Below are positions 1,310 through 22,591 of a DNA stretch of 25,444 bases, in pieces. Position numbers and translations under genes: made by a program. How positions within the stretch are numbered: position 1 is the stretch's first letter; each line of letters starts with the position of its first letter. The notes beneath the pieces were generated by a model. That model worked only from the letters and a program-made list of their open reading frames with translations, was not told where the DNA came from and ran no database searches. Origin of the DNA: Acidimicrobiaceae bacterium (lineage in GTDB: Bacteria > Actinomycetota > Acidimicrobiia > Acidimicrobiales > Salinilacustritrichaceae); contig DMTU01000255.1 of NCBI GenBank assembly GCA_003476595.1, forward strand, positions 313 through 25,756, written 5' to 3'.

Positions 1310-2782
1310 GTGCGAAATCTGCGCGTCGCCGTCATCGGCGCCGGGATGGCCGGCATCGCCAGCGTGATCAAGCTGCGCGAGGCCGGCATCGACGACGTGA
1401 CCGTGTTCGAGAAGGCCCACGACGTCGGAGGTACCTGGCGGGAGAACACCTATCCCGGCATCGCCTGCGACGTGCCCTCGCACCTGTACAGCTACTCGTT
1501 CTCGCCCAACGCCGACTGGACCCACACGTTCTCGCCGGGCGATGAGATCCAGGCCTACTTCCAGGAGGTCGCCCGCCGCGAGGGCGTGTACGAGCGGACC
1601 CGCTTCGGCGAGGAGGTGGTGTCGCTCGACCACACCGCCGGTCGGTGGACGCTGGCAACCACCGGCGGCTACCGGGACGACTTCGACGTGGTCATCGCTG
1701 CCACCGGCGTGCTCCACCACCCCAACGTGCCCGACCTGCCCGGGCTGGGCTCCTTCGCCGGTGCCGCCTTCCACAGCGCCCGCTGGGATCACGACGTGCC
1801 GATCGAGGGCCGACGCGTCGGTGTGATCGGCACCGGCTCCTCCGCCGTGCAGATCACCGGTGCACTGGTCGACCGGGTCTCGCACCTGACCCTGTTCCAG
1901 CGCACGCCGCAGTGGATCATGCCGATCGACAACACGCCCTACGACGAGGTCCAGCGTCGCGCGTTCCGGGACGACCCCGCCCTCATGCGCCAGGCCCGCG
2001 ACGGCCTGGGGCAGGCATTCGCCGACCACTTCGCCAACGCGGTGATCGACGCCGACTCACCGGCCATGGCCCTCATCGAGGAGGCCTGCCGCGCCCACCT
2101 GGAGGGCGTCGCCGATCCGGTCCTGCGGGAGAAGCTGCGACCCGACTACCGCGCCGGGTGCAAGCGGCTGATCGCCTCGGGCGAGTTCTACGACGCCATG
2201 CAGCGCCCCAACGCCGAGCTCGTCACCGACCGGATCGAGCGGATCGAGCCGGCCGGCGTGCGCACCGCCGACGGCGAGCTGCACGAGCTCGATGTGCTGG
2301 TGCTGGCCACCGGGTTCCGCTCCGACCGGTTCCTGCGCCCGATCCACGTGCGGGGTCGCGACGGCGCCGACCTCGACGACGTGTGGGCGCAGCGACCCAG
2401 CGCGCACCTCGCGTTGGCCGTGCCCGGCTTCCCCAACCTGTTCCTGCTCAACGGGCCGAACGGACCGGTGGGGAACTTCTCGCTCATCGACGTCGCCGAG
2501 CTCCAGCTCGACTACACGATCCAGCTCCTCGACCTGCTCCGTCAGGGCGCCGAGTCCGTCGAGCCCACCCCCGAGGCGGCCGAGGCCTTCGAGGCCGCTC
2601 GCGTCGAGGCCACGAAGGGCACCGTGTGGGTCACCGGCTGCCGCAGCTGGTACCTCGACGACCGCGGCGTCCCGGCGGCGTGGCCGTGGAGCATCGACCA
2701 CTTCCGCGAGGTGATGCAGGCCCCCGACCTCACCCAGTACCGGGTGACCTCCGGCCAGGCGGTGGCGACGGCCAGAGACTAG
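1310..2782 (+). CDS. Flavin-dependent Baeyer-Villiger monooxygenase 1
   Basis: A 490-residue class B flavoprotein monooxygenase. It would use FAD, NADPH and O2 to insert oxygen next to a ketone carbonyl (ester or lactone product), or to oxygenate a soft heteroatom. Visible motifs: FAD-binding GAGMAG at residues 10-15; the first BVMO fingerprint, GGTW through YPGIACD, near residue 40; the second fingerprint FxGxxxHxxxW with F149 to W159; and a second nucleotide-binding turn GTGSSAV after it, for NADPH. ATGF near the C-terminal third is also typical. Length is at the short end of the family. It follows the amidohydrolase by 23 bases, with a good ribosome site before GTG 1310. Its stop overlaps the stop of the opposing alcohol dehydrogenase. 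The natural substrate is unknown; steroid or cyclic ketones are a guess from context. Confidence 0.9.
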   Translation: MRNLRVAVIGAGMAGIASVIKLREAGIDDVTVFEKAHDVGGTWRENTYPGIACDVPSHLYSYSFSPNADWTHTFSPGDEIQAYFQEVARREGVYERTRFGEEVVSLDHTAGRWTLATTGGYRDDFDVVIAATGVLHHPNVPDLPGLGSFAGAAFHSARWDHDVPIEGRRVGVIGTGSSAVQITGALVDRVSHLTLFQRTPQWIMPIDNTPYDEVQRRAFRDDPALMRQARDGLGQAFADHFANAVIDADSPAMALIEEACRAHLEGVADPVLREKLRPDYRAGCKRLIASGEFYDAMQRPNAELVTDRIERIEPAGVRTADGELHELDVLVLATGFRSDRFLRPIHVRGRDGADLDDVWAQRPSAHLALAVPGFPNLFLLNGPNGPVGNFSLIDVAELQLDYTIQLLDLLRQGAESVEPTPEAAEAFEAARVEATKGTVWVTGCRSWYLDDRGVPAAWPWSIDHFREVMQAPDLTQYRVTSGQAVATARD

Positions 2783-3870
2783 TCCGGCACCACGACCCCG
2801 TGGATGGGCGGGGTACCGCCCTCGCCGGCCATGGTGCCCAGCAGTGCCTCGACACCGTCGAGACCGACGACCGCCCGCTCCAGATCGGCGAAGGGATAGC
2901 GGCCGGTGGCCAGCAGGTCGAGGGCGGCCCGGTACGCGACCACGTCGACGCCGAGCGCGCCTTCGATGCGCAGCTCCTTGTAGACGACGTGATCGGGCTC
3001 GAAGCCGGGTGCCCCGCCGCCGCCCCGGGTGCCGGCGATGACGATGCGCCCGCCGGTGGCGGCGAGCTGCACCGCTTGGGCCACGACCTGGGGCGCCTTG
3101 GCCGTGACGTCGACGACGACGTCGGCGCCGGAACGGCCCGTGGCGGCCCGGAACGCCTCGATCGGATCCTGCTCGGTGACGTCGACCACGAGGTCGGCAC
3201 CGAAGTCGGGGGCGGCGTCGAGGCGGGGACGGTCGCGCTCGCCGGCGCCGGTGACCATGACGAAGTCGGCGCCCGCCTCCTTGGCCGCAACCGATGCTGA
3301 CAGGCCGCGGACCCCGCAGCCGAGGACGGCCACGACGTCGCCGGGACCGGTTCCGGGCACGGTGGCGCCCCAGCGGATGCCGGCGCCCAGCGGATTGAAC
3401 AAGGTGGCCACCACCGGGTCGAGCCCCTCGGGGACGGGCAGCACCATGGAGTCCGGTGCCAGGTACTGGTGGGTGGCGTAGCCGCCCCACAGCCCCGGCC
3501 CGGTGTCGACCGACACGAACCCGTACATGGTGGCCAGGCCGTTGCGCTCGCAGCGCCGGTAGGCGCCGGCCCGGCAGGCATCGCACTCCCGGCAGGAGCG
3601 GAACACCTCGACCGCCACCCGCTGGCCCTGCGTCACACCCCAGCGCTGCGCGGCGACCGGGCCGATCTGCTCGATCACCCCGACCGCCTCGTGGCCGGGG
3701 ATGAACGGGTGCCCCGGGTGGAGCTGGCCGCTGTACTGCTCGTGATCGGTGCCGCACAGCCCGCAGGCCTCGACTCGGAGCAGGGCGTCGTCGTCGCCGA
3801 TCTCGGGGAGCGGCAGCTCGCGGGGCTCGAGGGTGTGCGGTGCGGCGAGCACCATGGCGGTGGCGTTCAT
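2779..3870 (-). CDS. Zinc-dependent medium-chain alcohol dehydrogenase
   Basis: A 363-residue MDR-superfamily dehydrogenase, which would interconvert an alcohol and an aldehyde or ketone with NAD(P). Catalytic zinc ligands are visible as C39 in GLCGTD and H60-E61 in PGHE. The structural zinc loop is complete, with C93, C96, C99 and C107. A Rossmann turn GCGVRG lies mid-protein. The start is ATG at 3870, with AAGGGG a few bases upstream on the minus strand. It is divergent from the P450 gene, with a 111-base shared gap, and convergent with BVMO 1. A plausible role is oxidation of the alcohol made by P450 hydroxylation or by ester hydrolysis after a BVMO step; this is inferred from neighbours only. 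Glutathione-dependent formaldehyde dehydrogenase is less likely because the typical sequence around those zinc loops is not seen. Confidence 0.88.
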   Translation of the reverse strand: MNATAMVLAAPHTLEPRELPLPEIGDDDALLRVEACGLCGTDHEQYSGQLHPGHPFIPGHEAVGVIEQIGPVAAQRWGVTQGQRVAVEVFRSCRECDACRAGAYRRCERNGLATMYGFVSVDTGPGLWGGYATHQYLAPDSMVLPVPEGLDPVVATLFNPLGAGIRWGATVPGTGPGDVVAVLGCGVRGLSASVAAKEAGADFVMVTGAGERDRPRLDAAPDFGADLVVDVTEQDPIEAFRAATGRSGADVVVDVTAKAPQVVAQAVQLAATGGRIVIAGTRGGGGAPGFEPDHVVYKELRIEGALGVDVVAYRAALDLLATGRYPFADLERAVVGLDGVEALLGTMAGEGGTPPIHGVVVPD

Positions 3871-3918
3871 GTCGTCCCCTTGGGTCGGCGGCACGCATGC
3901 ATCAATGAGCCGCAGCTG

Positions 3919-5342: not shown

Positions 5343-6992
5343 ATGGGCCACGACGACGATGCGAGCCACGGTTGGCACTACGCCGACGTCTGGGACCTGA
5401 TCGCCGAGCTGCGTCCGGCCCAGGATGCCCTGGTCCATGGTGATCGGCGCACGAGCTGGTCGGCGTTCCGGGACCGCGCCGGCGCGCTGGCGTCGAGCCT
5501 GGTCGCCGGTGGGGCCGGACCGGGCGACCGGGTGGCCCAGTACCTCTACAACAGCCCCGAGTACCTCGAGGTCACCTACGCCGCCTACCAGGCCGGGCTC
5601 ACCCCGGTGAACACCAACTACCGGTACCGGGCCGACGAGCTCGCCTACCTGTGGACGAACGCCGATGCGGTGGCGGTCGTGTTCCACGGCGCCTTCACCG
5701 ACACCGTCGACTCGGTGCGCGACCGGGTGCCCACGCTGCGCCGGTGGCTGTGGGTGGACGACGGCAGCGGGCCGTGCCCGGACTGGGCGGAGCCCTACGA
5801 GGCCATCGCGGGCGCCGCGGCCGCCGGTCCCTACCAGCCGTCGTGGGGGCGCAGCGGCGACGACATCGTGATGATCTACACCGGTGGCACCACCGGCATG
5901 CCCAAGGGTGTGATGTGGCGCCACGACGACATGTACCGGTCCTTCAACGCCGTGGGCGACCCCGACGACCGCGACCTCGACGCGGTTCGTGACCGCCTGG
6001 GCGCCGAGGGAGAGCCGCCGGTGGGCATCCCGGGGTCGCCCCTCATGCACGCCACGGGGTACATGTTCGCCAAGAGCATGCTCACCCAGGGCGGGACCGT
6101 GGTCACGCTGCCGGACCGCCACTTCGACGTGCGATCCCTGCTCGAGACCATCGAACGCGAGGGGGTCACGACCGTGGCCATCGTCGGTGACGCCTTCGCC
6201 CGGCCGATCCTGGAGGCGCTCGACGCGTCCCCGCAGCGCTGGGACCTCTCGTCCCTGCAGCTGCTCGTGTCGGCCGGCGTGATGTGGAGCGGCGAGACCA
6301 AGGCCGGGCTGGCCCGCCACCTCCCCGGCACCCTGTTCGCCGATCTGCTCGGTTCCACCGAAGCCCACGGGATGGGGTCGTCGGTGTCGGGGGCCGGCTC
6401 CGATCCGAACACGGCCAGGTTCTCCCTCGGTGCCCACGCCATGGTCATCGACGACGGCGGCAACGTGCTCGGTCCCGGCGGTACCGGCCTGCTCGCGGTC
6501 GGCGGACCCGGACCGGTCGGCTACCACAAGGACCCCGACAAGTCGGCCGCCACCTTCCGCACCGTCGCCGGCCGGCGGGTGTCGGTGCCCGGCGACTGGG
6601 CCCGCGTCGGCGACGACGGCAGCATCACCCTGCTCGGCCGGGGGTCGCTGTGCATCAACACCGGTGGCGAGAAGGTCTTCCCCGAGGAGGTGGAGGAGGC
6701 CCTCGAGACGCACCCGGCCGTCCGGGACTCCACCGTGGTGGGGGTGCCGGATCCGGCCTTCGGCGAGGCCGTCGGCGCCGTGGTGTCCCTCGTCGGCGAC
6801 GACCTGGTCACCGCCGATGACCTCATCGTCCACGTCAAGGGCCGCATCGCCGGGTACAAGGCGCCCAAGCACGTGCTGATCGTGGACGACGTGGAGCGGA
6901 GCCCGAACGGCAAGGCGGACTACGCCGGCGCCCGCCGACGGCTCCTCGACCACCTGTCAGCCACCTCCCCCGCGTCGGCCCAGTCCGACTGA
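5343..6992 (+). CDS. FadD19-like acyl-CoA synthetase (AMP-forming)
   Basis: A 549-residue ANL-superfamily adenylating enzyme, expected to activate a carboxylic acid to its CoA thioester with ATP. The phosphate-binding loop is [11 protein letters not shown] at residues 179-189, followed by VMWRHDD. The GSTE motif, [28 protein letters not shown] and the C-terminal SPNGK with catalytic K524 are all in order. The wording of these motifs closely resembles mycobacterial FadD17/FadD19 ligases; FadD19 is known for activating C-24-branched sterol side chains. The start is ATG 5343, after a G-rich ribosome site. BVMO 2 follows 23 bases later. K524 is the residue that protein acetyltransferases modify in related ligases, and such a protein is encoded at 14542-15747. 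Class sure; sterol-type substrate inferred. Confidence 0.9.
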
Positions 6993-7015
6993 GGACGCCC
7001 GGAAAGGAACCCCGC

Positions 7016-8827
7016 GTGTCACCGAGCACTGCACCCGAGATCGACAAGGACGCACTGAAGGCGAAGTACCGACGCGAGCGCGACAAGCGGCTCCGCCCGG
7101 ACGGGAACGCCCAGTACCAGCGCCTGAGCGGGCGCTTCGCCCACTACGCCGTGGACCCGTACCTGCCGGTCGAGCCGCGGGACCCCGTTACCGACGACGT
7201 GACCGTGGCCGTCATCGGTGGGGGCTTCGCCGGGCTGCTCACCGGCGCCCGGCTCGCCGAGGCCGGCGTCACCGACGTCCGCATCATCGACAAGGGCGGG
7301 GACTTCGGCGGCACCTGGTACTGGAACCGGTACCCGGGCGCCCAGTGCGACACCGCCTCGATGGTGTACATGCCGCTGCTCGAGGAGACCGGGCACATGC
7401 CCACCGAGAAGTACGCGCACGGGCCCGAGATCCTCGAGCACTCCCAACGCATCGGCAAGCACTTCGGCCTCTACGACGGCGCCCTGTTCCACACCGAGGT
7501 CACCGGTCTGGTGTGGGACGAGGCCCGGGCGCGCTGGGTGGTGCGCACCGACCGGGGCGACGAGTTCACCGCCCGGTTCCTGTCCATGGGTACCGGCCCG
7601 CTCCACGTACCCAAGCTGCCCGGCGTGCCCGGCATCGACGAGTTCGATGGCCACGCCTTCCACACCAGTCGCTGGGACTACGCCTACACCGGCGGCGACC
7701 CCACCGGTGCGCCGATGACCGGTCTGGCCGACAAGCGGGTGGCGGTCATCGGCACGGGCGCCACCGCGGTGCAGTGCGTGCCCCGCCTCGCCCGAGACGC
7801 CGGCGAGCTGTTCGTGTTCCAGCGGACCCCGTCGTCGGTCGACGTGCGCGGCAACCACCCCATCGACCCGGACTGGTTCGTGAGCGTCGCCACCCCCGGC
7901 TGGCAGCAGCGCTGGCTGGAGAACTTCACCCTGAACCAGACGGGGGGCATGGTCGAAGAGGACCTGGTCATGGACGGCTGGACCGATCTGGCCCGGCGCA
8001 TCCTGGGCCGCATCGCGTCGCTCGAGGGTCCCGTCGACATGACCCGGATCATGGAGGCCGTCGAGGACGCCGACTTCGAGAAGATGGAGCAGATCCGGGC
8101 TCGCTGCGACGAGGTGGTGCAGGACCCCGAGACGGCCGAGAACCTGAAGGCCTGGTACCGCCAGCTGTGCAAGCGGCCCTGCTTCCACGACGAGTACCTG
8201 CAGGCCTACAACGAGCCCACCGTCCGCCTGGTGGACACCGACGGCCAGGGTGTGGAGCGGATCACCGCCACCGGCGTCGTGGTCGCCGGCGTCGAGTACG
8301 AGGTCGACTGCATCGTGTTCGCCTCCGGCTTCGAGGTGGGCACACCGTTCACCGAGCGGGCCGGCTACGACCCGGTCGGGCGCGGCGGTCGGCGCCTGTC
8401 GGAGTACTGGGCCGCCGGCATGAAGACCTTGCACGGCATGCACGTGCACGGCTTCCCCAACCTGTTCATCACCCAGCTGGGCCACGGCGCCAACCTCGTC
8501 TCCAACGTCCCCCACAACTTCACCGAGACGTCGAAGGCCGTCGCCGCCGTGGTGGCCCACGCCGAGGAGGGCGGCCATGACGTCGTGGAGGCGAGCGAGG
8601 AGGCCGAGCAAGCCTGGATGGAGCTGATCTCGAGCGGGTCGACCTCGGCCATGGGCTCGGCGCTGGGGTCGGCCGACTGCACGCCGGGCTACTACAACAA
8701 CGAGGGCCAGCCCGGGGCCGGCTTCGCCAGCGAGATCGCCAAGGGCCACCCGGGCGGCCCCATGGCGTTCTTCGAGCACCTGCGACGCTGGACGGGGGAG
8801 GGCTTCGATGGGCTCGACTTCCGATAG
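7016..8827 (+). CDS. Baeyer-Villiger monooxygenase 2 (long type)
   Basis: A 603-residue type I BVMO. An N-terminal extension of about 60 residues, with a KYRRERDKR stretch and DGNAQY, precedes the FAD turn GGGFAG; this resembles the longer BVMOs of about 600 residues active on large cyclic ketones such as cyclododecanone or cyclopentadecanone. The first fingerprint runs GGTW to YPGAQCD near residue 102, FxGxxxHxxxW spans F210 to W220, and GTGATAV marks the NADPH site. It would use FAD, NADPH and O2. The start is GTG 7016 with GGAAAGGA upstream. It lies between the CoA ligase and an SDR in the same direction, so is very likely in one operon. The macrocyclic-ketone preference is inferred from overall architecture only. 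Confidence 0.92.
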
Positions 8828-8869
8828 ACCCGCAGCCGAGCGGCCCACCACCGCCGCGAGCCGCGGGCG

Positions 8870-9610
8870 ATGACCGCCCGGACCGCACTGGTGACCGGCG
8901 GGGGCGGGGGCATCGGCGCGGCGATCTGCCGGGGGCTGGCCGACGCCGGCCACCGGGTGGCCGTGGCCGACGTGGCCGTCGAGCGGGCCCGAGAGGTGGC
9001 CGTCGACATCGACGGTGTCGCCGTCGAGCTCGACGTGACCGATCCGGCCTCGGTCACCGCCGCGGTCGCCGGCGCGGCCGAGGCGCTCGGACCGATCGAG
9101 ATCTGCGTGAGCTGCGCCGGCTGGGACGAGCTGCGTCCCTTCCTGGACACCGACGAGGCCTTCCAGGCCAAGATCATCGAGATCAACCTGGCCGGACCGG
9201 TGCGCGTCACCCGGGCCGTCCTGCCCGCCATGGTGGAGCGCTCGTTCGGGCGGATCGTGAACATCGGCTCCGACGCCGGCCGGGTCGGCTCGTCGCTCGA
9301 GTCGGTGTACTCCGGCGCCAAGGGTGGCGTCATCGCCTTCACCAAGACCATCGCCCGCGAGTTCGCCCGCCACGGCATCACGGCCAACACCGTCTGCCCC
9401 GGCCCGACGGACACCCCGCTGCTCGACGCCATCACCGAGGCCAGCGCCGATGCCGAGCGGGTGATCGCCGGGATGACGAAGGCCGTGCCCATGCGCCGCC
9501 TCGGCCAGCCCGACGACGTGGCCCCGGCCGTGGTGTTCCTCGCCTCCGACGCCGCCGGCTTCATCACCGGCCAGACCCTGTCGGTGAGTGGCGGGCTCAC
9601 CATGGCATGA
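8870..9610 (+). CDS. Short-chain dehydrogenase/reductase, BadH-like
   Basis: A 246-residue classical SDR. The coenzyme loop is TGGGGGIG at residues 9-16, catalytic Ser lies in NIGSDAGRVG, and the catalytic pair is Y147/K151 in YSGAK. The usual NNAG motif reads SCAG here, which is tolerated in some members. The late motif CPGPTDTPLL and the overall pattern resemble BadH, the 2-hydroxycyclohexanecarboxyl-CoA dehydrogenase of alicyclic acid degradation, and more distantly 3-oxoacyl-ACP reductases. It may oxidise a beta-hydroxyacyl-CoA in the pathway that starts with the neighbouring ligase. The gene begins 42 bases after BVMO 2; ATG 8870 has only a weak ribosome site. SDR assignment firm, BadH-type role tentative. 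Confidence 0.85.
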   Translation: MTARTALVTGGGGGIGAAICRGLADAGHRVAVADVAVERAREVAVDIDGVAVELDVTDPASVTAAVAGAAEALGPIEICVSCAGWDELRPFLDTDEAFQAKIIEINLAGPVRVTRAVLPAMVERSFGRIVNIGSDAGRVGSSLESVYSGAKGGVIAFTKTIAREFARHGITANTVCPGPTDTPLLDAITEASADAERVIAGMTKAVPMRRLGQPDDVAPAVVFLASDAAGFITGQTLSVSGGLTMA

Positions 9611-9684: not shown

Positions 9685-10545
9685 ATGAAGACCTTCCAGG
9701 GCCGCGTCGGCGCCATCACCGGAGCCGGGTCCGGCATCGGCCGGGCCGTGGCCACCGAGCTGGCCCGCCGCGGGGCCGAGGTCGCCCTGTGCGACGTTGA
9801 CGACGCCGGCCTCGCCGAGACCGCCGACCGCATCCAGGCCATGGGCACCCGCGTGTCCACCCAGCGCGTCGACGTGGCCGACCGCCAGGCGGTGGAGGAG
9901 TGGGCCGACAAGGTGGCGGCCGACCACGGCAAGGTCAACCTGATCATCAACAACGCCGGAGTCGCCCTCGGCGCCAACGTGGAGACGATGTCGTACGAGG
10001 ACCTCGAGTGGCTGATGGGCGTCAACTTCTGGGGCGTCGTCCACGGGACCAAGGCGTTCCTGCCCCACCTGCGCGCCGCAGGCGAGGGTCACATCGTCAA
10101 CATCTCCAGCGTGTTCGGGATGATGGGGATCCCGTCGCAGTCGGCGTACAACGCGGCGAAGTTCGCGGTGCGCGGCTTCACCGAAGCGCTCCGGATCGAG
10201 CTCGATGCCGACGGTGGCAAGGTCTCGTGCACCACCATCCACCCGGGCGGCATCAAGACCAACATCGCCCGCAACGGCCGCTTCGACGACGCCACCATGT
10301 CCGGGATGGGCATGTCCGATCTGGTCCAGGACCCCGACAAGGTGCTCGAGATGACCGAGCGGGCGTTCCGCACGACCCCGGAGAAGGCGGCCCAGGTCAT
10401 CCTCGACGCCGTCCAGGCCGACAAGCGCCGGGCGTTCATCGGCACCGACGCCCAGCTGTTCAAGTTCATGGCCATGCTGCCCCCAGGCGTGTACCAGAAC
10501 GCCATCCGGCTCGGGTCCCGCCTGGGCGCCCGCTTCGCCCGCTGA
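9685..10545 (+). CDS. Short-chain dehydrogenase/reductase with C-terminal extension
   Basis: A 286-residue classical SDR. Motifs: TGAGSGIG near residue 14, acidic CDVDD after the second strand (suggesting NAD preference, an inference), NNAG, catalytic Ser in NISSVFG and Y155/K159 in YNAAK. It is about 30-40 residues longer than a minimal SDR; the extra C-terminal part (after TTPEKAAQVILDAV) is seen in many actinobacterial SDRs of lipid and steroid metabolism. The start is ATG 9685 with a clear GAGGGGAAA site. The 353-residue putative diiron protein begins 24 bases downstream with its own strong ribosome site, so the two are probably co-expressed. Substrate unknown; an alcohol or ketone in the same pathway is likely. 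Confidence 0.87.
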   Translation: MKTFQGRVGAITGAGSGIGRAVATELARRGAEVALCDVDDAGLAETADRIQAMGTRVSTQRVDVADRQAVEEWADKVAADHGKVNLIINNAGVALGANVETMSYEDLEWLMGVNFWGVVHGTKAFLPHLRAAGEGHIVNISSVFGMMGIPSQSAYNAAKFAVRGFTEALRIELDADGGKVSCTTIHPGGIKTNIARNGRFDDATMSGMGMSDLVQDPDKVLEMTERAFRTTPEKAAQVILDAVQADKRRAFIGTDAQLFKFMAMLPPGVYQNAIRLGSRLGARFAR

Positions 10546-10569: not shown

Positions 10570-11631
10570 ATGACTCACACGCTCGAGTTCAGCGCCGAGG
10601 AGCTGCTGGCCACCGACGACATCGAGGAGCCGCTGCTGGCCGGCGGTGTCCGCTGCCACGGTGGGTTCCTCCACGACGGCACCTACGTCTCGCCGCGCAC
10701 CAAGTTCCGCCGGCCGGCGCTCACGGCATGGCAGGACCAGCACCGCAAGGACTTCGGCACCGAGATCCTGCACGCGCCGGTCGAGACCTGGCCGGGCAAC
10801 TACCCGAGCGTCGAGCAGGCCCGGCTGCTGCTGCGCCACGGGGTGCGGGAGCCGATCATCGCCAACCTCACCCGGATCGGCACGGTGGAGGGCTTCGGTG
10901 CGATGATCCGCTTCCTCGCCCCTCCAGACATGCAACGGTTCTTCGACGACGACATCCGTGGCACGGCGTTGGACCACCTCTCGAAGGGCTTGGTCGAGGC
11001 ACACGCGCGGGACGAGGCCGGCCACGGCGACGAAGCCGGCCACGACCGTATGTGGTACGCCGTGCGTGACATCGCCTTCGAGAACCCGGTCACCCAGGAC
11101 GAGACCGAGCTGATGATGCAGCGCATGGGAATCGCCTTCGGCGCCAGCCCCGATCCCGACGGTGCCCGGCAGCGGTTCCTGGGCAAGCGCGCCTTCGAGG
11201 ATCTCGACGTCGGGCTCGAGCTGCTGATCTCCACCATGCTCCGGGTCCTGTTCGTGGAGATCAAGGCCTTCCACGTCTTCGCCTGGGCCGAGGAGCTGCT
11301 GTCCGATCCTGACCTGGTGGCCGGCGACGGCGAGGCGACCCGCCTGGTCTCCTTCATCCGGGCCGATGAGACCCCGCATGTGGAGTACCTGCGCACCGCG
11401 CTCACCGAGATGCGCGATCGCACGTTCGTGGGCGAGTCCGGGAAGCACTACCCGGGTGCCGACATCATCGGGCCGATGTGGGATGCGTCCCTGGCCGAGT
11501 CGCTGGGGCTGCTGGAGGACCAGAACCGGGCGGCCACCGTCGCCGAGCTGGAGCTGGCCGTGTCGTCCCGGCCCCACGGCGCCGACCTGCTCGCCGAGTT
11601 CCACAGCCTGGCCGAACCGCCGGCGGACTGA
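10570..11631 (+). CDS. Unknown protein with ferritin-like diiron ligand pattern
   Basis: 353 residues that I cannot assign to a named family. Seen in the sequence: a predicted mostly helical protein with two ExxH motifs, E149-A-G-H152 (repeated at once as E155-A-G-H158) and E267-T-P-H270. Helical segments around E107 (TVEGFGAMIRFL) and E230 (LFVEIKAFHVF) each offer a further Glu. The order Glu, ExxH, Glu, ExxH is the signature of four-helix carboxylate-bridged diiron proteins such as desaturases, R2-like oxidases and N-oxygenases. Which Glu residues in helices 1 and 3 bind metal is my inference. It has no signal peptide or membrane segment. The start is ATG 10570, with GAGGAG six bases upstream. 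It sits behind an SDR in the ligase/BVMO operon, suggesting an oxygenase or oxidase step on the same substrate. A structural role without iron cannot be excluded. Confidence 0.8.
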   Translation: MTHTLEFSAEELLATDDIEEPLLAGGVRCHGGFLHDGTYVSPRTKFRRPALTAWQDQHRKDFGTEILHAPVETWPGNYPSVEQARLLLRHGVREPIIANLTRIGTVEGFGAMIRFLAPPDMQRFFDDDIRGTALDHLSKGLVEAHARDEAGHGDEAGHDRMWYAVRDIAFENPVTQDETELMMQRMGIAFGASPDPDGARQRFLGKRAFEDLDVGLELLISTMLRVLFVEIKAFHVFAWAEELLSDPDLVAGDGEATRLVSFIRADETPHVEYLRTALTEMRDRTFVGESGKHYPGADIIGPMWDASLAESLGLLEDQNRAATVAELELAVSSRPHGADLLAEFHSLAEPPAD

Positions 11632-11681: not shown

Positions 11682-14446
<2,765 letters not shown>

Positions 14447-17653: not shown

Positions 17654-17659
17654 AGCCTA
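17654..17659 (-). promoter_or_regulatory. Candidate -10 box for a leaderless catabolic transcript
   Basis: On the minus strand the hexamer is TAGGCT, six bases before ATG 17647, so transcription would start at or next to the start codon. No ribosome site is visible before this ATG, which supports a leaderless start. The -35 region is not convincing. Confidence 0.4.
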
Positions 17660-17704
17660 TGGAGGGGCATCGCGGTCGGTGCGCGGCGCGGGGCGTGGAA
17701 CGTC

Positions 17705-17729
17705 TACGGTCTCATGCGTCACCGGACGC
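17705..17729 (+). promoter_or_regulatory. Candidate -10 box and leader hairpin of the transporter operon
   Basis: TACGGT (17705-17710) fits the TANNNT pattern and would place the start of transcription near 17717. It is followed by GCGTC (17716-17720), loop ACCG, GACGC (17725-17729), a 5-bp hairpin between promoter and ribosome site (AAGGGGG, 17744-17750). Both calls rest on pattern only. Confidence 0.35.
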
Positions 17730-17751
17730 GGGTCCGGGAACCGAAGGGGGA

Positions 17752-19047
17752 ATGGTGACGTCGACGAGGCGATGGGTGAGCGTCCTGCTCGCCGCAGCAC
17801 TGCTGATCGGTGCCTGTGGTGCCGAGGACGAGTCCACGGCAACAGACGAAGGCGCCGCGGTCGATGGCGGGGCCGAAGAGCCGGCGCCTCCGGAGGAGGC
17901 GCTCCCAGAGGAGGAGGCCGAGATCGAGGACAGCACCGCCGGTGTCACCGACTCCACCATCAGCATCGGCGTCCACGCCCCCGAGACGATCGGCGGGATC
18001 GACATCGGAGACCTCCTCGGGCTCGGGGACATGACCCAGCTCTACTGGGACACGGTGAACGAGGCGGGCGGGATCCACGGTCGCACCGTGGAGGTGACCC
18101 TGGGCGATGACGGCTACGACGCCAACGCGGCCCAGCAGGCGTGCCGCGACCTGATCGCCAAGGATCTGTTCTTCGTCTCCGGCACCTCGGGCGCCGACCA
18201 GATCATCACGTGCGCCAACCTGGCCACCGAGGTCCAGATGCCGTACCTGAGCCTCGGTGTCGCCGAGGCCGGGCTGGTCGACAGGCCCGGCTACCGGGCG
18301 ATGACGATGACCTACGACGGCATGTCGGAGCTCATGGCCGAGTACGTGCTCGGCGAGCTGGCCGAGCCCGAGACCCCCGTCGCCATGGTCCGCTACAACA
18401 GCCCGAGCTCGGCGGGCGCCCAGGACGCGTTCACCGCCAAGATGGACGAGCTGGGCGGCAACGTGGTGGCCGCCGATGCGGTGGACAAGCAGGGCAACGC
18501 CAACGAGCTCACCGCCGAGTGCGTGAAGCTGGCCAACCTCGGCGTCGAGGTCGTCTTCATGATCCTCGTGCCCACCGTGTCGACCCAGCTCGCCCGCCTG
18601 TGCGCCGAGCAGGGCTTCACCCCCCAGTACGTGACCGTCTCCAACACCCTGTCCTGCGCCTCGGAGCCGCCGATCGGCGTCCCCGAGCTGAACGGCTGCC
18701 AGTCGTTCTCGGCCGTGCGGGTCGACGTCACCGACAGCCCCTTGGCCAAGGAGGCCATGGACGCGTGGGCTGCCGCCTTCCCCGACCGTGAGCCGCCGGA
18801 TGACCTGGTGACGTTCTGGGGCCTGTTCGACATCTACCGCGAGGCCCTCGAACAGATGGGTCCGGAGCCGAGCCGGGTGAAGTTCCTCGAGACGTTGGAC
18901 TCCATGCAGTACGACAACGGCTTGGCCAACCCGATCGACTTCGCCGGGGACAAGATCGGGGCCGACAGCACCATCGTGATCGAAGCAACGGGGGAAGCTC
19001 CCTGGGAGCGCGAGCTCGTCGCGGAGTGGACCTCCAGCTTCGGCTGA
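17752..19047 (+). CDS. Branched-chain-amino-acid-type ABC transporter substrate-binding lipoprotein
   Basis: A 431-residue secreted lipoprotein of the LivJ/LivK (periplasmic-binding type I) group. A signal peptide with RR at 6-7, a hydrophobic core and lipobox IGAC ends at C22, the predicted lipidated Cys. An acidic, Pro/Glu/Ala-rich tether of about 40 residues follows (EEPAPPEEALPEEE), as is usual for surface-anchored binding proteins. The mature domain has ISIGVHAP, GGIHGR and FVSGTSGAD, as in the family. Family members bind branched amino acids, but in actinobacteria also aromatic acids, amides and other ligands, so the ligand is not known here. Start ATG 17752 (GTG 17755 also possible). 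The permease fusion begins 23 bases after its stop, so these are one operon. Confidence 0.88.
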   Translation: MVTSTRRWVSVLLAAALLIGACGAEDESTATDEGAAVDGGAEEPAPPEEALPEEEAEIEDSTAGVTDSTISIGVHAPETIGGIDIGDLLGLGDMTQLYWDTVNEAGGIHGRTVEVTLGDDGYDANAAQQACRDLIAKDLFFVSGTSGADQIITCANLATEVQMPYLSLGVAEAGLVDRPGYRAMTMTYDGMSELMAEYVLGELAEPETPVAMVRYNSPSSAGAQDAFTAKMDELGGNVVAADAVDKQGNANELTAECVKLANLGVEVVFMILVPTVSTQLARLCAEQGFTPQYVTVSNTLSCASEPPIGVPELNGCQSFSAVRVDVTDSPLAKEAMDAWAAAFPDREPPDDLVTFWGLFDIYREALEQMGPEPSRVKFLETLDSMQYDNGLANPIDFAGDKIGADSTIVIEATGEAPWERELVAEWTSSFG

Positions 19048-19070
19048 GCAGCTGATCGGCGGGCGTGGAG

Positions 19071-21869
19071 ATGGAAGAAGCGTTCACCTTCGTGGTCGTC
19101 GGCATCGCCGGCGGCTCCACCTACGCACTGCTCGCGCTCGGCCTGGTGCTCGTCCACAGCGTCTCCCGCGTCCTCAACTTCGCCCAGGGCGCCTTCGGCA
19201 CCCTCGCCGCCTTCGTCGCCGCCAGCATCGCCATGGGTCACGACATCCCGTGGCCGCTGGCGGTGGCGGCCGCGGTGGCGGTGGGGGCGGCGGTGGGGGC
19301 GGCCACGGCGGTGGTGCTGCTCGGCCGCGATGGCGGGATCCTCCCGCCGCTGGTCGGGACCGTCGGGATCCTGTCTGCCATCACGCTCGTCGAGGCCCGT
19401 TGGCTCGGGGGCACCCGCGAGTTCCCCACGCCGGTCTCCGGCGCCGGTGTCGAGCTGGCCGGGGTGGTGATCACCCCCACCCGCATGTTGGTCGTGGCCG
19501 TCGCCGCGGGGGCCGGTCTCGCCCTGTGGCTCGGTCTGGAGCGGACGCGCCTCGGGCTGGCGCTGCGGGCCGGTGCCGACAACCGCGAGGGCGCCCGCAT
19601 CGTCGGGCTCGACCCACGACGGCTCGAGGTGGCGGCGTGGACCGCCGCCGGTGCCCTCGGCGCCGTCGCCGGCGTGCTGTCCGGCTGGACGACCCAGACC
19701 ATCACTCCCGGCTTCCTCACCGGCGTGCTTCCCCAGGCCTTCGCCGCCGCGATGCTCGGCGGCATGGTCAGCCTGCCCGGCGCCATCCTCGGCGGGTTGG
19801 TCGTCGGCGTGGCCGAGAGCCTGACCCGCCTCTACTGGGGCGGCACGCCGGGCTCCCCGGAGCTGGTCGTGTTCCTGGTGCTCGCCGCCGTCCTGCTGCT
19901 CCGTCCCCAGGGACTGTTCACCCGAGCCCGGCGTGGTCTCGCCTTCGAGGGATCCGAATCCCTCGTTCGCCTCCTGCCGATGGTGCGCGACCCGCGCCCG
20001 GGCTCGACCCTCAGCCGGGTCGTGGGTCCGGCCGGTCCGGTGGTCGCCGTGGTGGCCGTCGTCGCCATCGCCGGGGCGGTGTCCGGCCCGGATGCCTTCA
20101 AGCTGTCGGCCCTGCCGGTGTACGCCCTGCTGGCCCTCAGCCTCAACTTCCTCGCCGCCGCCACCGGGCAGCTCTCCCTGGGCCATGCCGGCCTCTTCGG
20201 GCTCGGTGCCTTCGGCGCAGCCGTCGCCACCACCACGTGGGAGCTGCCGCCGGTGCTGGGGTTCCTCGCCGGGCCGGCACTGGCCGGGGTCGCCGCCGCC
20301 GCACTCGGTGCCGCGTCCCTGCGGGTCCGCGGCCTCTACCTGGCCGTGCTGACCCTGGCCTTCGGAGTGGTGCTGCAGGCCTTCGTGTTCCCCACCGAGA
20401 CGTTCTCCCAGGGCGGCGCCGGCCTGACGCTGACCCGTCCCGAGCTCGGCCCGTTCGACCTCGGCGACGACGGCACGTTCCTGGCCGCGTGCGGGATCCT
20501 GCTCATCGCGGTCTGGGCGGTGCTCCGCCGGCTCGAGCGAGTCCCGCTGCTGCGCGGCATGGTCGCCATCCGGGAGAACCAGACGGCGGCCTCGGCCCGC
20601 GGCATCGACGCCACCCGGCTCGGCGTCGTGGGCTTCGCCATCTCCGGCGTCCTGGCCGGCCTGGCCGGGTCCGCCTTCGCCTTCCGCCAGGGCATCGTGG
20701 TCGCGTCGGTCTTCCCGGTGCAGCTGTCGCTCACGCTCGTGATCTGGGTGGTGCTCGGCGGGCTGGGGTCCCGGGCCGGTGTCGCCGCCGTCGCAGCCGC
20801 GTTCACCCTCGTCGATCTCTACGCCTCGGGCAGCAACCAGATCTTCACCCTCCTCGCCGCGCTGGCGGTCGTCCTGCTCATCGGTCGTCAGCCCCTCGGT
20901 GCCGGCGGTGCCCTGCGCGCGGTGTTCGAGCGTCGCCGTCTCGCCCGTCCCGCCAGCCGGCCGGCCAGCGAGCGGCGAGAACCCGCGAGGAGCGACGCGG
21001 CGGGGGGAGCCCCGGGTCCCGGGCCCGCCGTCCCGCCGTCGCTCGTGGTCCGCATGTCCGAGCACGAGGTGGTCCGGCCGGTGGTGCTCGGCGCACGCGA
21101 CGTCACGGTCCGCTTCGGCGGCAACGTGGCCATCGACTCGCTGTCGCTCGACGTCCATCCCGGCGAGATCGTCGGCATCCTCGGACCCAACGGCGCCGGC
21201 AAGACCACGACGTTCAACGTCCTGAGCGGCTTCATCGCCCCCACCCGGGGCGGGGTCTGGTTCCGGGGTCACGACATCTCCGAGCTCACACCGGCCGAGC
21301 GCACACGGCGCGGCCTGGGCCGGTCGTTCCAGCAGGGCGGACTGTGGCCGTCGGAGACGGCGCACGCCAACCTGTTGATGGCCCAGTACGGGCGCTCGGT
21401 CGGGTCCTCGTTCGGTGACGCCGTCGCCCTGGCGCCGGAGCATCTGCGCAGCGACCGACGCCGCGCCGCCGTCGCCGATGAGGTCCTCGAAGTGCTCGGC
21501 CTGGGCGACGCGGCCCGGCGACCGGTCGGCACCCTGCCCTACGGGCACCGCAAGGTCCTCGAGATCGGCTGCGCCGTGGCCACCCGACCCGAGGTGCTGC
21601 TCCTCGACGAGCCCGCCGCCGGCCTCCACGGTGCACAGAGCGAGTGGATCTCCGAAGCCATCGCCGCCCTGCGCCGCGAGCTGGGCATCACCGTCGTGGT
21701 CATCGAGCACGACGTCGCCCTGGTCCGATCGGTGTCGGACCGCATCTACGTCCTGGACTTCGGGAGCCTGCTCACCGCGGGTCGACCCGACGAGGTGCTG
21801 GCTCGAGCCGAGGTGATCGAGGCCTACCTCGGCCAGCCTCTCGCCGCTCCCGGGACGGTGCCGTCGTGA
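19071..21869 (+). CDS. Fused LivH-LivM-LivG: two permeases plus ATPase in one chain
   Basis: One uninterrupted 932-residue chain equal to three usual Liv subunits. About 1-285 is a LivH-type permease (GGSTYALLALGLVL, VLNFAQGAFG); about 315-615 a LivM-type permease (LNFLAAATGQLSLGHAG, MVAIRENQTAASARGI); a 40-residue Arg/Pro/Ala-rich linker; then, from about 662, a LivG-type ATPase. The ATPase has Walker A GPNGAGK711T, a FQQ Q-loop, Walker B LLLDEP (D846/E847) and H-loop VIEHD; its signature reads LPYGHRK rather than LSGGQ, a variant seen in LivG-like proteins. It would form the inner-membrane channel and one motor domain, with LivF as the other. I see no frameshift. ATG 19071 is preferred, with GTG 19065 possible. 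An internal ATG at 21054 could start a free ATPase but has no ribosome site. Confidence 0.9.
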   Translation: MEEAFTFVVVGIAGGSTYALLALGLVLVHSVSRVLNFAQGAFGTLAAFVAASIAMGHDIPWPLAVAAAVAVGAAVGAATAVVLLGRDGGILPPLVGTVGILSAITLVEARWLGGTREFPTPVSGAGVELAGVVITPTRMLVVAVAAGAGLALWLGLERTRLGLALRAGADNREGARIVGLDPRRLEVAAWTAAGALGAVAGVLSGWTTQTITPGFLTGVLPQAFAAAMLGGMVSLPGAILGGLVVGVAESLTRLYWGGTPGSPELVVFLVLAAVLLLRPQGLFTRARRGLAFEGSESLVRLLPMVRDPRPGSTLSRVVGPAGPVVAVVAVVAIAGAVSGPDAFKLSALPVYALLALSLNFLAAATGQLSLGHAGLFGLGAFGAAVATTTWELPPVLGFLAGPALAGVAAAALGAASLRVRGLYLAVLTLAFGVVLQAFVFPTETFSQGGAGLTLTRPELGPFDLGDDGTFLAACGILLIAVWAVLRRLERVPLLRGMVAIRENQTAASARGIDATRLGVVGFAISGVLAGLAGSAFAFRQGIVVASVFPVQLSLTLVIWVVLGGLGSRAGVAAVAAAFTLVDLYASGSNQIFTLLAALAVVLLIGRQPLGAGGALRAVFERRRLARPASRPASERREPARSDAAGGAPGPGPAVPPSLVVRMSEHEVVRPVVLGARDVTVRFGGNVAIDSLSLDVHPGEIVGILGPNGAGKTTTFNVLSGFIAPTRGGVWFRGHDISELTPAERTRRGLGRSFQQGGLWPSETAHANLLMAQYGRSVGSSFGDAVALAPEHLRSDRRRAAVADEVLEVLGLGDAARRPVGTLPYGHRKVLEIGCAVATRPEVLLLDEPAAGLHGAQSEWISEAIAALRRELGITVVVIEHDVALVRSVSDRIYVLDFGSLLTAGRPDEVLARAEVIEAYLGQPLAAPGTVPS
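19277..19300 (+). repeat. Tandem 12-base G-rich repeat inside the LivH part
   Basis: GGCGGTGGGGGC occurs twice in direct succession (19277-19288, 19289-19300), flanked by more GGCGG/GGTGG runs. It keeps the reading frame and encodes alternating Ala/Val/Gly in a membrane helix. The run of G tracts could form a G-quadruplex in the coding strand. Confidence 0.7.
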
Positions 21870-22591
21870 CCGCCGCCCTGTCGGTGCGCGGGTTGGTGGC
21901 CGGCTACGACGGCGTGCCGGTGGTGCGCGACATCGACCTCGACATCGGCCCGGACACGTTCCTGGCGGTGGTCGGAGCCAACGGTGCCGGAAAGACGACC
22001 ACGCTCCGGGCGATCATGGGCCTGTGCGACGTGTTCGCCGGCACCATCGAGCTCGGCGACCGCTCGGTCGGCGACGCCCGCACGAGCGCCCGGGTCTTGG
22101 CCGGTCTCGCCCTGTGCCCGGAGGGTCGGATGGTCTTCCCCACCCTCACCGTGGAGGAGAACCTGCTCACCGGCGCCATCGCCGGCCAGGCCTGGGCCGG
22201 AAGATCTGACGCCCTCGCCCGCGTCTATGCGGTGCTACCCCGGCTCGCGGAGCGCCGCGGCCAGGCCGCCGGCACGATGTCGGGCGGCGAGCAGCAACAG
22301 CTCGCGGTCGGGCGCTCCCTGATGAGCGACCCACGGGTCCTGCTCGTCGACGAGGCATCCCTGGGCCTGGCCCCGGTCATGGTGGACCAGGTGTTCGAGA
22401 TCCTGGCCAGCATCCACGCGTCGGGCACCGCCATCGTCGCCGTGGAGCAGAACATCCGCATCAGCACCGTGGCCACCGAGATCGTGGTGCTCGAGCAGGG
22501 CACGATCTCGGAACGGATCCCGGCCGAGGACGTCGGCCACGGACTGCACGAAGCCGCGAGAGCGGCGTACTTCGGAACAGGAGCGCACTGA
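21866..22591 (+). CDS. livF: LivF-type ABC transporter ATPase
   Basis: A 241-residue ABC ATPase, the second motor of the Liv-type importer. Walker A GANGAGKTT, signature MSGGEQQQ, Walker B LLVDEASLGLAP and the late VEQN motif are standard for LivF; ASLGLAP and EQN distinguish it from LivG. Its GTG start overlaps the stop of the three-part fusion as GTGA, so the two are translationally coupled. The protein is cytoplasmic and binds the inner face of the permease. The following small membrane protein starts one base after its stop. Substrate of the system unknown, as for the binding protein. Confidence 0.93.
   Translation: MTAALSVRGLVAGYDGVPVVRDIDLDIGPDTFLAVVGANGAGKTTTLRAIMGLCDVFAGTIELGDRSVGDARTSARVLAGLALCPEGRMVFPTLTVEENLLTGAIAGQAWAGRSDALARVYAVLPRLAERRGQAAGTMSGGEQQQLAVGRSLMSDPRVLLVDEASLGLAPVMVDQVFEILASIHASGTAIVAVEQNIRISTVATEIVVLEQGTISERIPAEDVGHGLHEAARAAYFGTGAH

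Follow-up and report, generated by a model that had tools for sequence, protein, structure and literature searches.

An undescribed family of helical proteins with invariant glutamates and histidines, proposed as dimetal oxidases or oxygenases, from an Acidimicrobiaceae genome

The 25,444-nucleotide stretch (the window; Acidimicrobiaceae bacterium, assembly GCA_003476595.1, contig DMTU01000255.1, positions 313 to 25,756) carries on its forward strand, at 10570..11631, a gene for a 353 amino acid protein (the focus protein) of an unnamed family, with an ATG start preceded by an AGGAG-like stretch. We propose, giving the idea about an even chance of being right, that the protein is a helix-bundle enzyme, an oxidase or oxygenase with a dimetal and most likely diiron site, which would use O2 upon a hydrophobic substrate and be followed in its pathway by a flavin enzyme. 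It is probably a new branch of the oxygen-activating metal enzymes, because residues of the iron-binding type are fully conserved and an oxygen-using flavin enzyme is often encoded beside it.

The focus protein matched no Pfam or NCBIfam family at E <= 10, in agreement with the original prediction (made from the DNA letters and their translations), which had left it unassigned. When 54 family members were compared with the curated models, the best E values were 0.062 (Pfam) and 0.14 (NCBIfam) and none passed a cut-off; assignment of the focus protein by sequence to AurF, DUF455, Ferritin_2, Ribonuc_red_sm, Ferritin or any other known family was rejected. A search of 5.8 billion proteins gave 3711 homologues at E <= 0.001 among 8000 scored, a profile of 24 distant members gave 2646 matches among 8000 scored, no Pfam domain was found on the 240 homologues listed (120 per search), and those with names among the 120 listed for the focus protein are called “hypothetical protein”. 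The titles of the loci that carry names (80 kept of 127) are mostly Acidimicrobiia or Actinomycetota, with Myxococcota and Deltaproteobacteria also present; there was no match among plasmid records. At least 3 of 296 genomes in a scan of the phylum, the window's own included, have a match, a count that is a lower bound because at most 6 candidates were scored per genome. The window's own genome holds a second member, 37% identical and in another gene setting. No paper recognised as describing the family was found in the literature searched, which lay outside most subscription journals. Judged by its sequences, the family is undescribed and cannot be filed in a known one.

Conservation was assessed on 151 unique sequences, comprising the focus protein, 60 homologues taken from the 120 listed and 90 full-length proteins encoded at the fetched loci, with identities to the focus protein of 32-93% (21 sequences below 50% and 5 below 40%); L002, L017, L021, L023 and L088 yielded no open reading frame (ORF) that passed the filter and were excluded from the count, and so was the second member of the window's genome as found in L210. 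The pattern of ribonucleotide reductase (RNR) R2 and COQ7 is D/E...ExxH...E...ExxH (PMC8463856, PMC9774615), and the original prediction had read a complete Glu/ExxH/Glu/ExxH pattern from E107, E149, H152, E230, E267 and H270, with a doubled EAGH. The ORF, its coordinates and all of these residues are there (EAGH at 149-152 and 155-158), and E107, E149, E230, E267 and H270 were each found in 151/151 sequences, so that the lone carboxylates of the first and third ligand helices and the fourth-helix ExxH (267-270, 151/151) are invariant. The second-helix ExxH is not: it stands at 149-152 in only 16/151, position 152 being W in 69, F in 42, Y in 19 and H in 16, and on this ground E149xxH152 is rejected as the ligand pair, and the completeness of the pattern as first drawn is not supported. 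H158 is invariant (151/151) and E155 is present in 98/151, giving an ExxH at 155-158 in those 98. Because H158 is invariant while H152 and E155 vary, the conserved unit of helix B is E149-x8-H158, in which the spacer is 8 residues long in 146 sequences, 10 in 3 and 12 in 2.

The ligand set that we propose for a dimetal site is E107, E149, H158, E230, E267 and H270. Further residues found in 151/151 are H30, R43, R47, W54, H136, D148, M161, W162, R166, D266 and E280, with H145 (148/151) and E143 (147/151) nearly so; H145 and E149 fall on one face of helix 141-150 (at 100 degrees per residue), and therefore H136 or H145 may perhaps be an additional histidine ligand. ExxH occurs four times in the focus protein (at 65, 149, 155 and 267), where shuffled sequences have 1.34 on average (P 0.037), but this count alone is weak evidence and it is the conservation that is the real evidence.

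An AlphaFold2 (AF2) model of the focus protein was confident (pLDDT 92.6, pTM 0.90) and helical, and places E107, E230, E267 and H270 within long helices; the original claim that the candidate ligands follow in order on successive helices was supported. An N-terminal part of residues 1-93 (10570..10848), with a beta hairpin and helices by DSSP and the invariant H30, R43, R47 and W54, precedes helix 94-115 with E107 (codon 10888..10890). Residues 136-169 (10975..11076), with invariant H136, D148, E149, H158, M161, W162 and R166, hold the split helix-B segment, in which helix 141-150 and helix 158-169 are separated by a break at residues 151-157, seen again in a second model. E230 (codon 11257..11259) lies in helix 214-244, and D266-E267-T-P-H270 (11365..11379) is the DExxH of helix 255-282, resembling helix D of bacterioferritin by a weak profile match. 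All of these lie on the forward strand.

A fold search had been suggested as a check. For two separate models the top structural matches were mostly dimetal enzymes, but the fold matches were weak, Foldseek gave no significant match, and absence from these fold-search lists excludes no family. The family profile gave six chains in the Protein Data Bank (PDB) up to E 10, led by a designed diiron protein at E 0.011; the others were four bacterioferritins (E 0.033-0.37) and, at E 0.89, a uridylate kinase. With the single protein as query, the PDB sequence search gave only a collagen chain (E 1.7), which was discarded. Alignments by hhalign to home-made ferritin, R2, AurF, AurF-like, DUF455 and haem-oxygenase-like alignments indicate direction only, because all probabilities were 0.3-11%; the haem-oxygenase-like alignment covered an unrelated stretch.

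Gene neighbourhoods were surveyed at 96 loci (95 with a downstream gene, 1061 genes called), with genes grouped by single-linkage BLAST clusters whose identities rest on one or two representatives each. The counts leave out L001, L003, L006, L008, L021, L023 and L024, which are repeats or cut, but retain the identical pairs L007/L035 and L014/L057, the pairs L073/L074 and L043/L092, each nearly identical, and the closely similar L016/L044/L050; because of this they are counts of loci, not independent events, and a contig ending beside the focus gene can score as partnerless. Directly downstream on the same strand lies a gene of a luciferase-like cluster in 37/95 loci, of an ABC1/UbiB cluster in 9/95 and of a short-chain dehydrogenase/reductase (SDR) cluster in 5/95, and directly upstream a divergent TetR-cluster gene in 27/95. 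The PF00296 domain was scanned for on two of the 37 luciferase-like genes and found on both (L048:9065-10432, 182.7 bits; L090:9147-10244, 169.6 bits; cut-off 27.9), the others being assigned by BLAST clustering. Thirty-four of the 37 share 55% identity or more with the L078 copy, three being more distant, and all 34 genes with that identity among the 1061 stand directly downstream of a focus gene, 13 overlapping it by 4 nucleotides.

The luciferase-like partner is about 455 amino acids long, with 7bip the nearest solved chain (E 3.6e-26). By sequence, alkanal monooxygenases and F420 reductases are closer to it than diketocamphane monooxygenase is, the latter being absent from its matches at E <= 1e-4; for all 25 NCBIfam models shown of 28 its score was below the cut-off. 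A subset of Acidimicrobiia and Actinomycetota records has the pair between rho-rpmE-DUF1385 and prfA-prmC (DUF1385 assigned by Pfam, the other four genes recognised by eye); elsewhere, for example in the Binataceae record L085, the pair has other surroundings. In L090, tandem diverged family copies (6638-7759 and 7992-9092; 39% and 44% identical to the focus protein) precede the luciferase-like gene and could possibly form a heteromer. In L212 (6945-10460) a 36%-identical member lies beside a 747 amino acid RND/MMPL-type transporter look-alike, judged by eye, near P450- and ferredoxin-like genes.

Among 59 related genomes the partner (at least 66% identity) was present in 10/15 with the focus gene (E < 1e-100) and 3/44 without it (Fisher P 1.0e-5), the sets having been taken by hand from lists and the thresholds chosen after viewing them. 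In the ten co-occurring genomes the partner was adjacent in five and on another contig in five; G000, G001, G005, G012 and G025 have the focus gene without it. The window's own genome (80% complete) contains no close luciferase-like partner, the best match being 37% over about 200 residues. On a quick maximum likelihood tree of 96 rows (labels of the window row and L210 assigned by hand) the luciferase-like label is scattered, requiring 17 changes, a single change suffices for the ABC1 label (support 76), and 37/96 rows lack any scored partner. The window falls in an 11-row clade (support 98) with five luciferase-like rows, five with a Baeyer-Villiger monooxygenase (BVMO) and SDR, the window included, and one other; its sister L004/L214 (85-86% identical) has the order TetR, family gene, SDR and BVMO, the BVMO being cut at the contig end. 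Records titled Bifidobacterium breve (L074), Archangium sp. (L025) and Pseudomonadales (L079) stand among Acidimicrobiia-type sequences in the tree, L074 being nearly identical to the Acidimicrobiia record L073, and are likely to be misbinned or mislabelled.

In the window the focus gene ends a run of five on the forward strand with gaps of 23, 42, 74 and 24 nucleotides. The run starts with an acyl-CoA ligase (AMP-binding; 5343..6992, start set by the gene caller), which is over the NCBIfam PRK07798 cut-off, and continues with an FAD-type BVMO-like gene (7016..8827), near 5mq6 and (neo)pentalenolactone D synthase and below the NCBIfam cut-off (737 against 1100 bits). There follow an SDR (8870..9610) whose nearest NCBIfam model is 2-hydroxycyclohexanecarboxyl-CoA dehydrogenase (E 2.7e-92; 308.7 against 431.2 bits, below cut-off) and, directly upstream of the focus gene, another SDR (9685..10545; Pfam adh_short E 1.4e-52). 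The operon with a CoA ligase, a BVMO and two SDRs that had been proposed fits the strand and spacing, but it is a local arrangement, the commonest partner across loci being luciferase-like. A second BVMO-like gene (11682..13292, reverse strand, near 6jdk, start set by the gene caller) and an acyl-CoA dehydrogenase gene are convergent with the focus gene, and a P450 gene lies further upstream of the run.

Three BVMO-like genes thus fall within 12 kb (1283-2779, 7016-8827 and 11682-13292), beside P450, acyl-CoA dehydrogenase and CoA ligase genes. The gene set suggests that an alicyclic or terpenoid compound is broken down. At 17659-22591 there is, by eye, a branched-chain-amino-acid-type ABC transporter look-alike (binding protein, permeases and two ATPases), which may serve the catabolic island for uptake. 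The in-house gene caller, an amino-acid-composition script, called 20 genes in the window and made an error near 2766-3897, where a minus-strand alcohol dehydrogenase was replaced by a plus-strand ORF.

Classically, an oxidase making an alcohol or activating a ring is followed by an SDR, a BVMO, a hydrolase and a CoA ligase. In the mechanism that we envisage, O2 would be bound by the metal pair in its reduced state and used to oxidise a hydrophobic substrate, probably of alicyclic or isoprenoid type, by hydroxylation, desaturation or another activation, after which a dehydrogenase and a flavin monooxygenase would continue the oxidation, the latter being luciferase-like in many relatives and a BVMO in part of the window's clade. 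A BVMO-type order would run from hydroxylation through an SDR-made ketone and a BVMO-made ester to hydrolysis and CoA ligation; the window P450 could be an alternative catalyst of the first step. Priming by a hydroxylase and an SDR has been argued for BVMOs of SAR202 genomes, which include many luciferase-like enzymes of type II (PMC5395668); type II BVMOs are treated in PMC4631483. More tentatively, and as a bolder claim, the family may be a new dimetal carboxylate oxygenase branch marked by the loop-split helix-B pair (E149-x8-H158), an N-terminal H-G-G/R-x3-R/W part and a conserved relay with a luciferase-like flavin monooxygenase (a BVMO being swapped in for some lineages), in which iron would activate an inert substrate and flavin insert the oxygen.

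The nine loci with an ABC1 gene raise an alternative, that the family are COQ7-type lipid hydroxylases acting upon a membrane isoprenoid or quinone-like lipid which the ABC1/UbiB protein helps to deliver. All nine (L093, L094, L096-L100, L102 and L103) are in Myxococcota-type genomes, with the ABC1 gene directly 3' of the family gene on the same strand, overlapping it by 4 nucleotides in four (L093, L097, L098 and L102); the one representative scanned matched PF03109 at E 1.5e-76, the single gain on the tree fits, and COQ7, with its E/ExxH/E/ExxH pattern, itself hydroxylates a polyprenyl lipid at a diiron site (PMC9774615). The link is limited to that one group, however, while a luciferase-like or BVMO partner is found in the window's relatives, helix B has no ExxH and the scans gave no COQ7 or other Pfam match, so that we consider this unlikely. 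Flavin monooxygenases can leak H2O2, and a non-oxygenase dimetal protein, either a rubrerythrin-type peroxidase or oxidase or a metal store, might be tied to flavoproteins for that reason. The DExxH helix does resemble that of bacterioferritin (E 0.033), but at 353 amino acids the protein has roughly double the length of the ferritin domain (142 positions) with its ends, its N-terminal part has invariant residues of its own and the window operon contains SDRs, a BVMO and a CoA ligase, making this less likely again.

If the site were not dimetal, the invariant Glu and His would bind a single metal or act in acid-base chemistry, and the protein would be a helical enzyme with no relation to diiron proteins. 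The weak fold matches, the unusual helix B and the many other invariant residues (H30, R43, R47, W54, H136, D148, R166 and E280) would suit this, but successive helices bear two pairs of Glu with His and two single Glu, which is the dimetal arrangement, and the top structural matches of both models are mostly dimetal enzymes; we rank it below the two preceding alternatives as improbable. Membership of the haem-oxygenase-like dimetal oxidases (HDOs) is very improbable. The spacing of (D/E)xxH varies among HDOs, which makes the alpha1 motif the weaker test; it is missing at E107, position 110 being Gly in 151/151. The alpha3 pattern H-x3-(D/E)-xx-H, known from AetD (ligands D76, H79 and H172-x3-E176-xx-H179; PMC11611611), fails as well because position 263 is Ile in 145 and Val in 6 of the 151.

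Thousands of sequences in public databases belong to the family. If its site is dimetal, this would add an oxygen-activating family whose ligands are unusually spaced, and thanks to the conserved flavin partner a two-protein assay of the reaction would be at hand at once; the family could also name a missing step in the environmental breakdown of recalcitrant alicyclic or isoprenoid compounds.

Among known systems, the HDOs (CADD, UndA and AetD) would share dimetal chemistry as proposed for the focus protein, and the VIA-align Z to CADD is comparable, but in the family the first ligand helix has no (D/E)xxH and the last no HxxxD/ExxH. HDO ligands are mainly three His and three carboxylates from three core helices, those of ferritin-like oxygenases being variable sets (PMC13108848). 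COQ7 with COQ8/UbiB has a parallel in the nine loci where genes for a diiron-type protein and an ABC1/UbiB-family protein are neighbours, but there is no COQ7 sequence match and most of the fetched loci are Acidimicrobiia- or Actinomycetota-titled without an adjacent ABC1 gene. Likeness to bacterial luciferase (alkanal monooxygenase) and type II BVMOs, through PF00296 and 7bip, belongs to the partner and not to the focus protein. With the ferritin-like diiron enzymes (class I RNR R2, R2lox, MiaE, COQ7, AurF and ADO) the sequence match is not significant, and the family differs from them in its E-x8-H pair, which stands in place of ExxH and spans a helix break with a spacer of 8, 10 or 12 residues, and in its N-terminal part of about 93 residues with invariant H30, R43, R47 and W54. 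It shares with them a helical model, the DExxH helix and the succession of Glu, Glu plus His, Glu and ExxH on successive helices, giving four carboxylates and two His, and it is a ferritin-like diiron oxygenase that the focus protein would appear to work most like.
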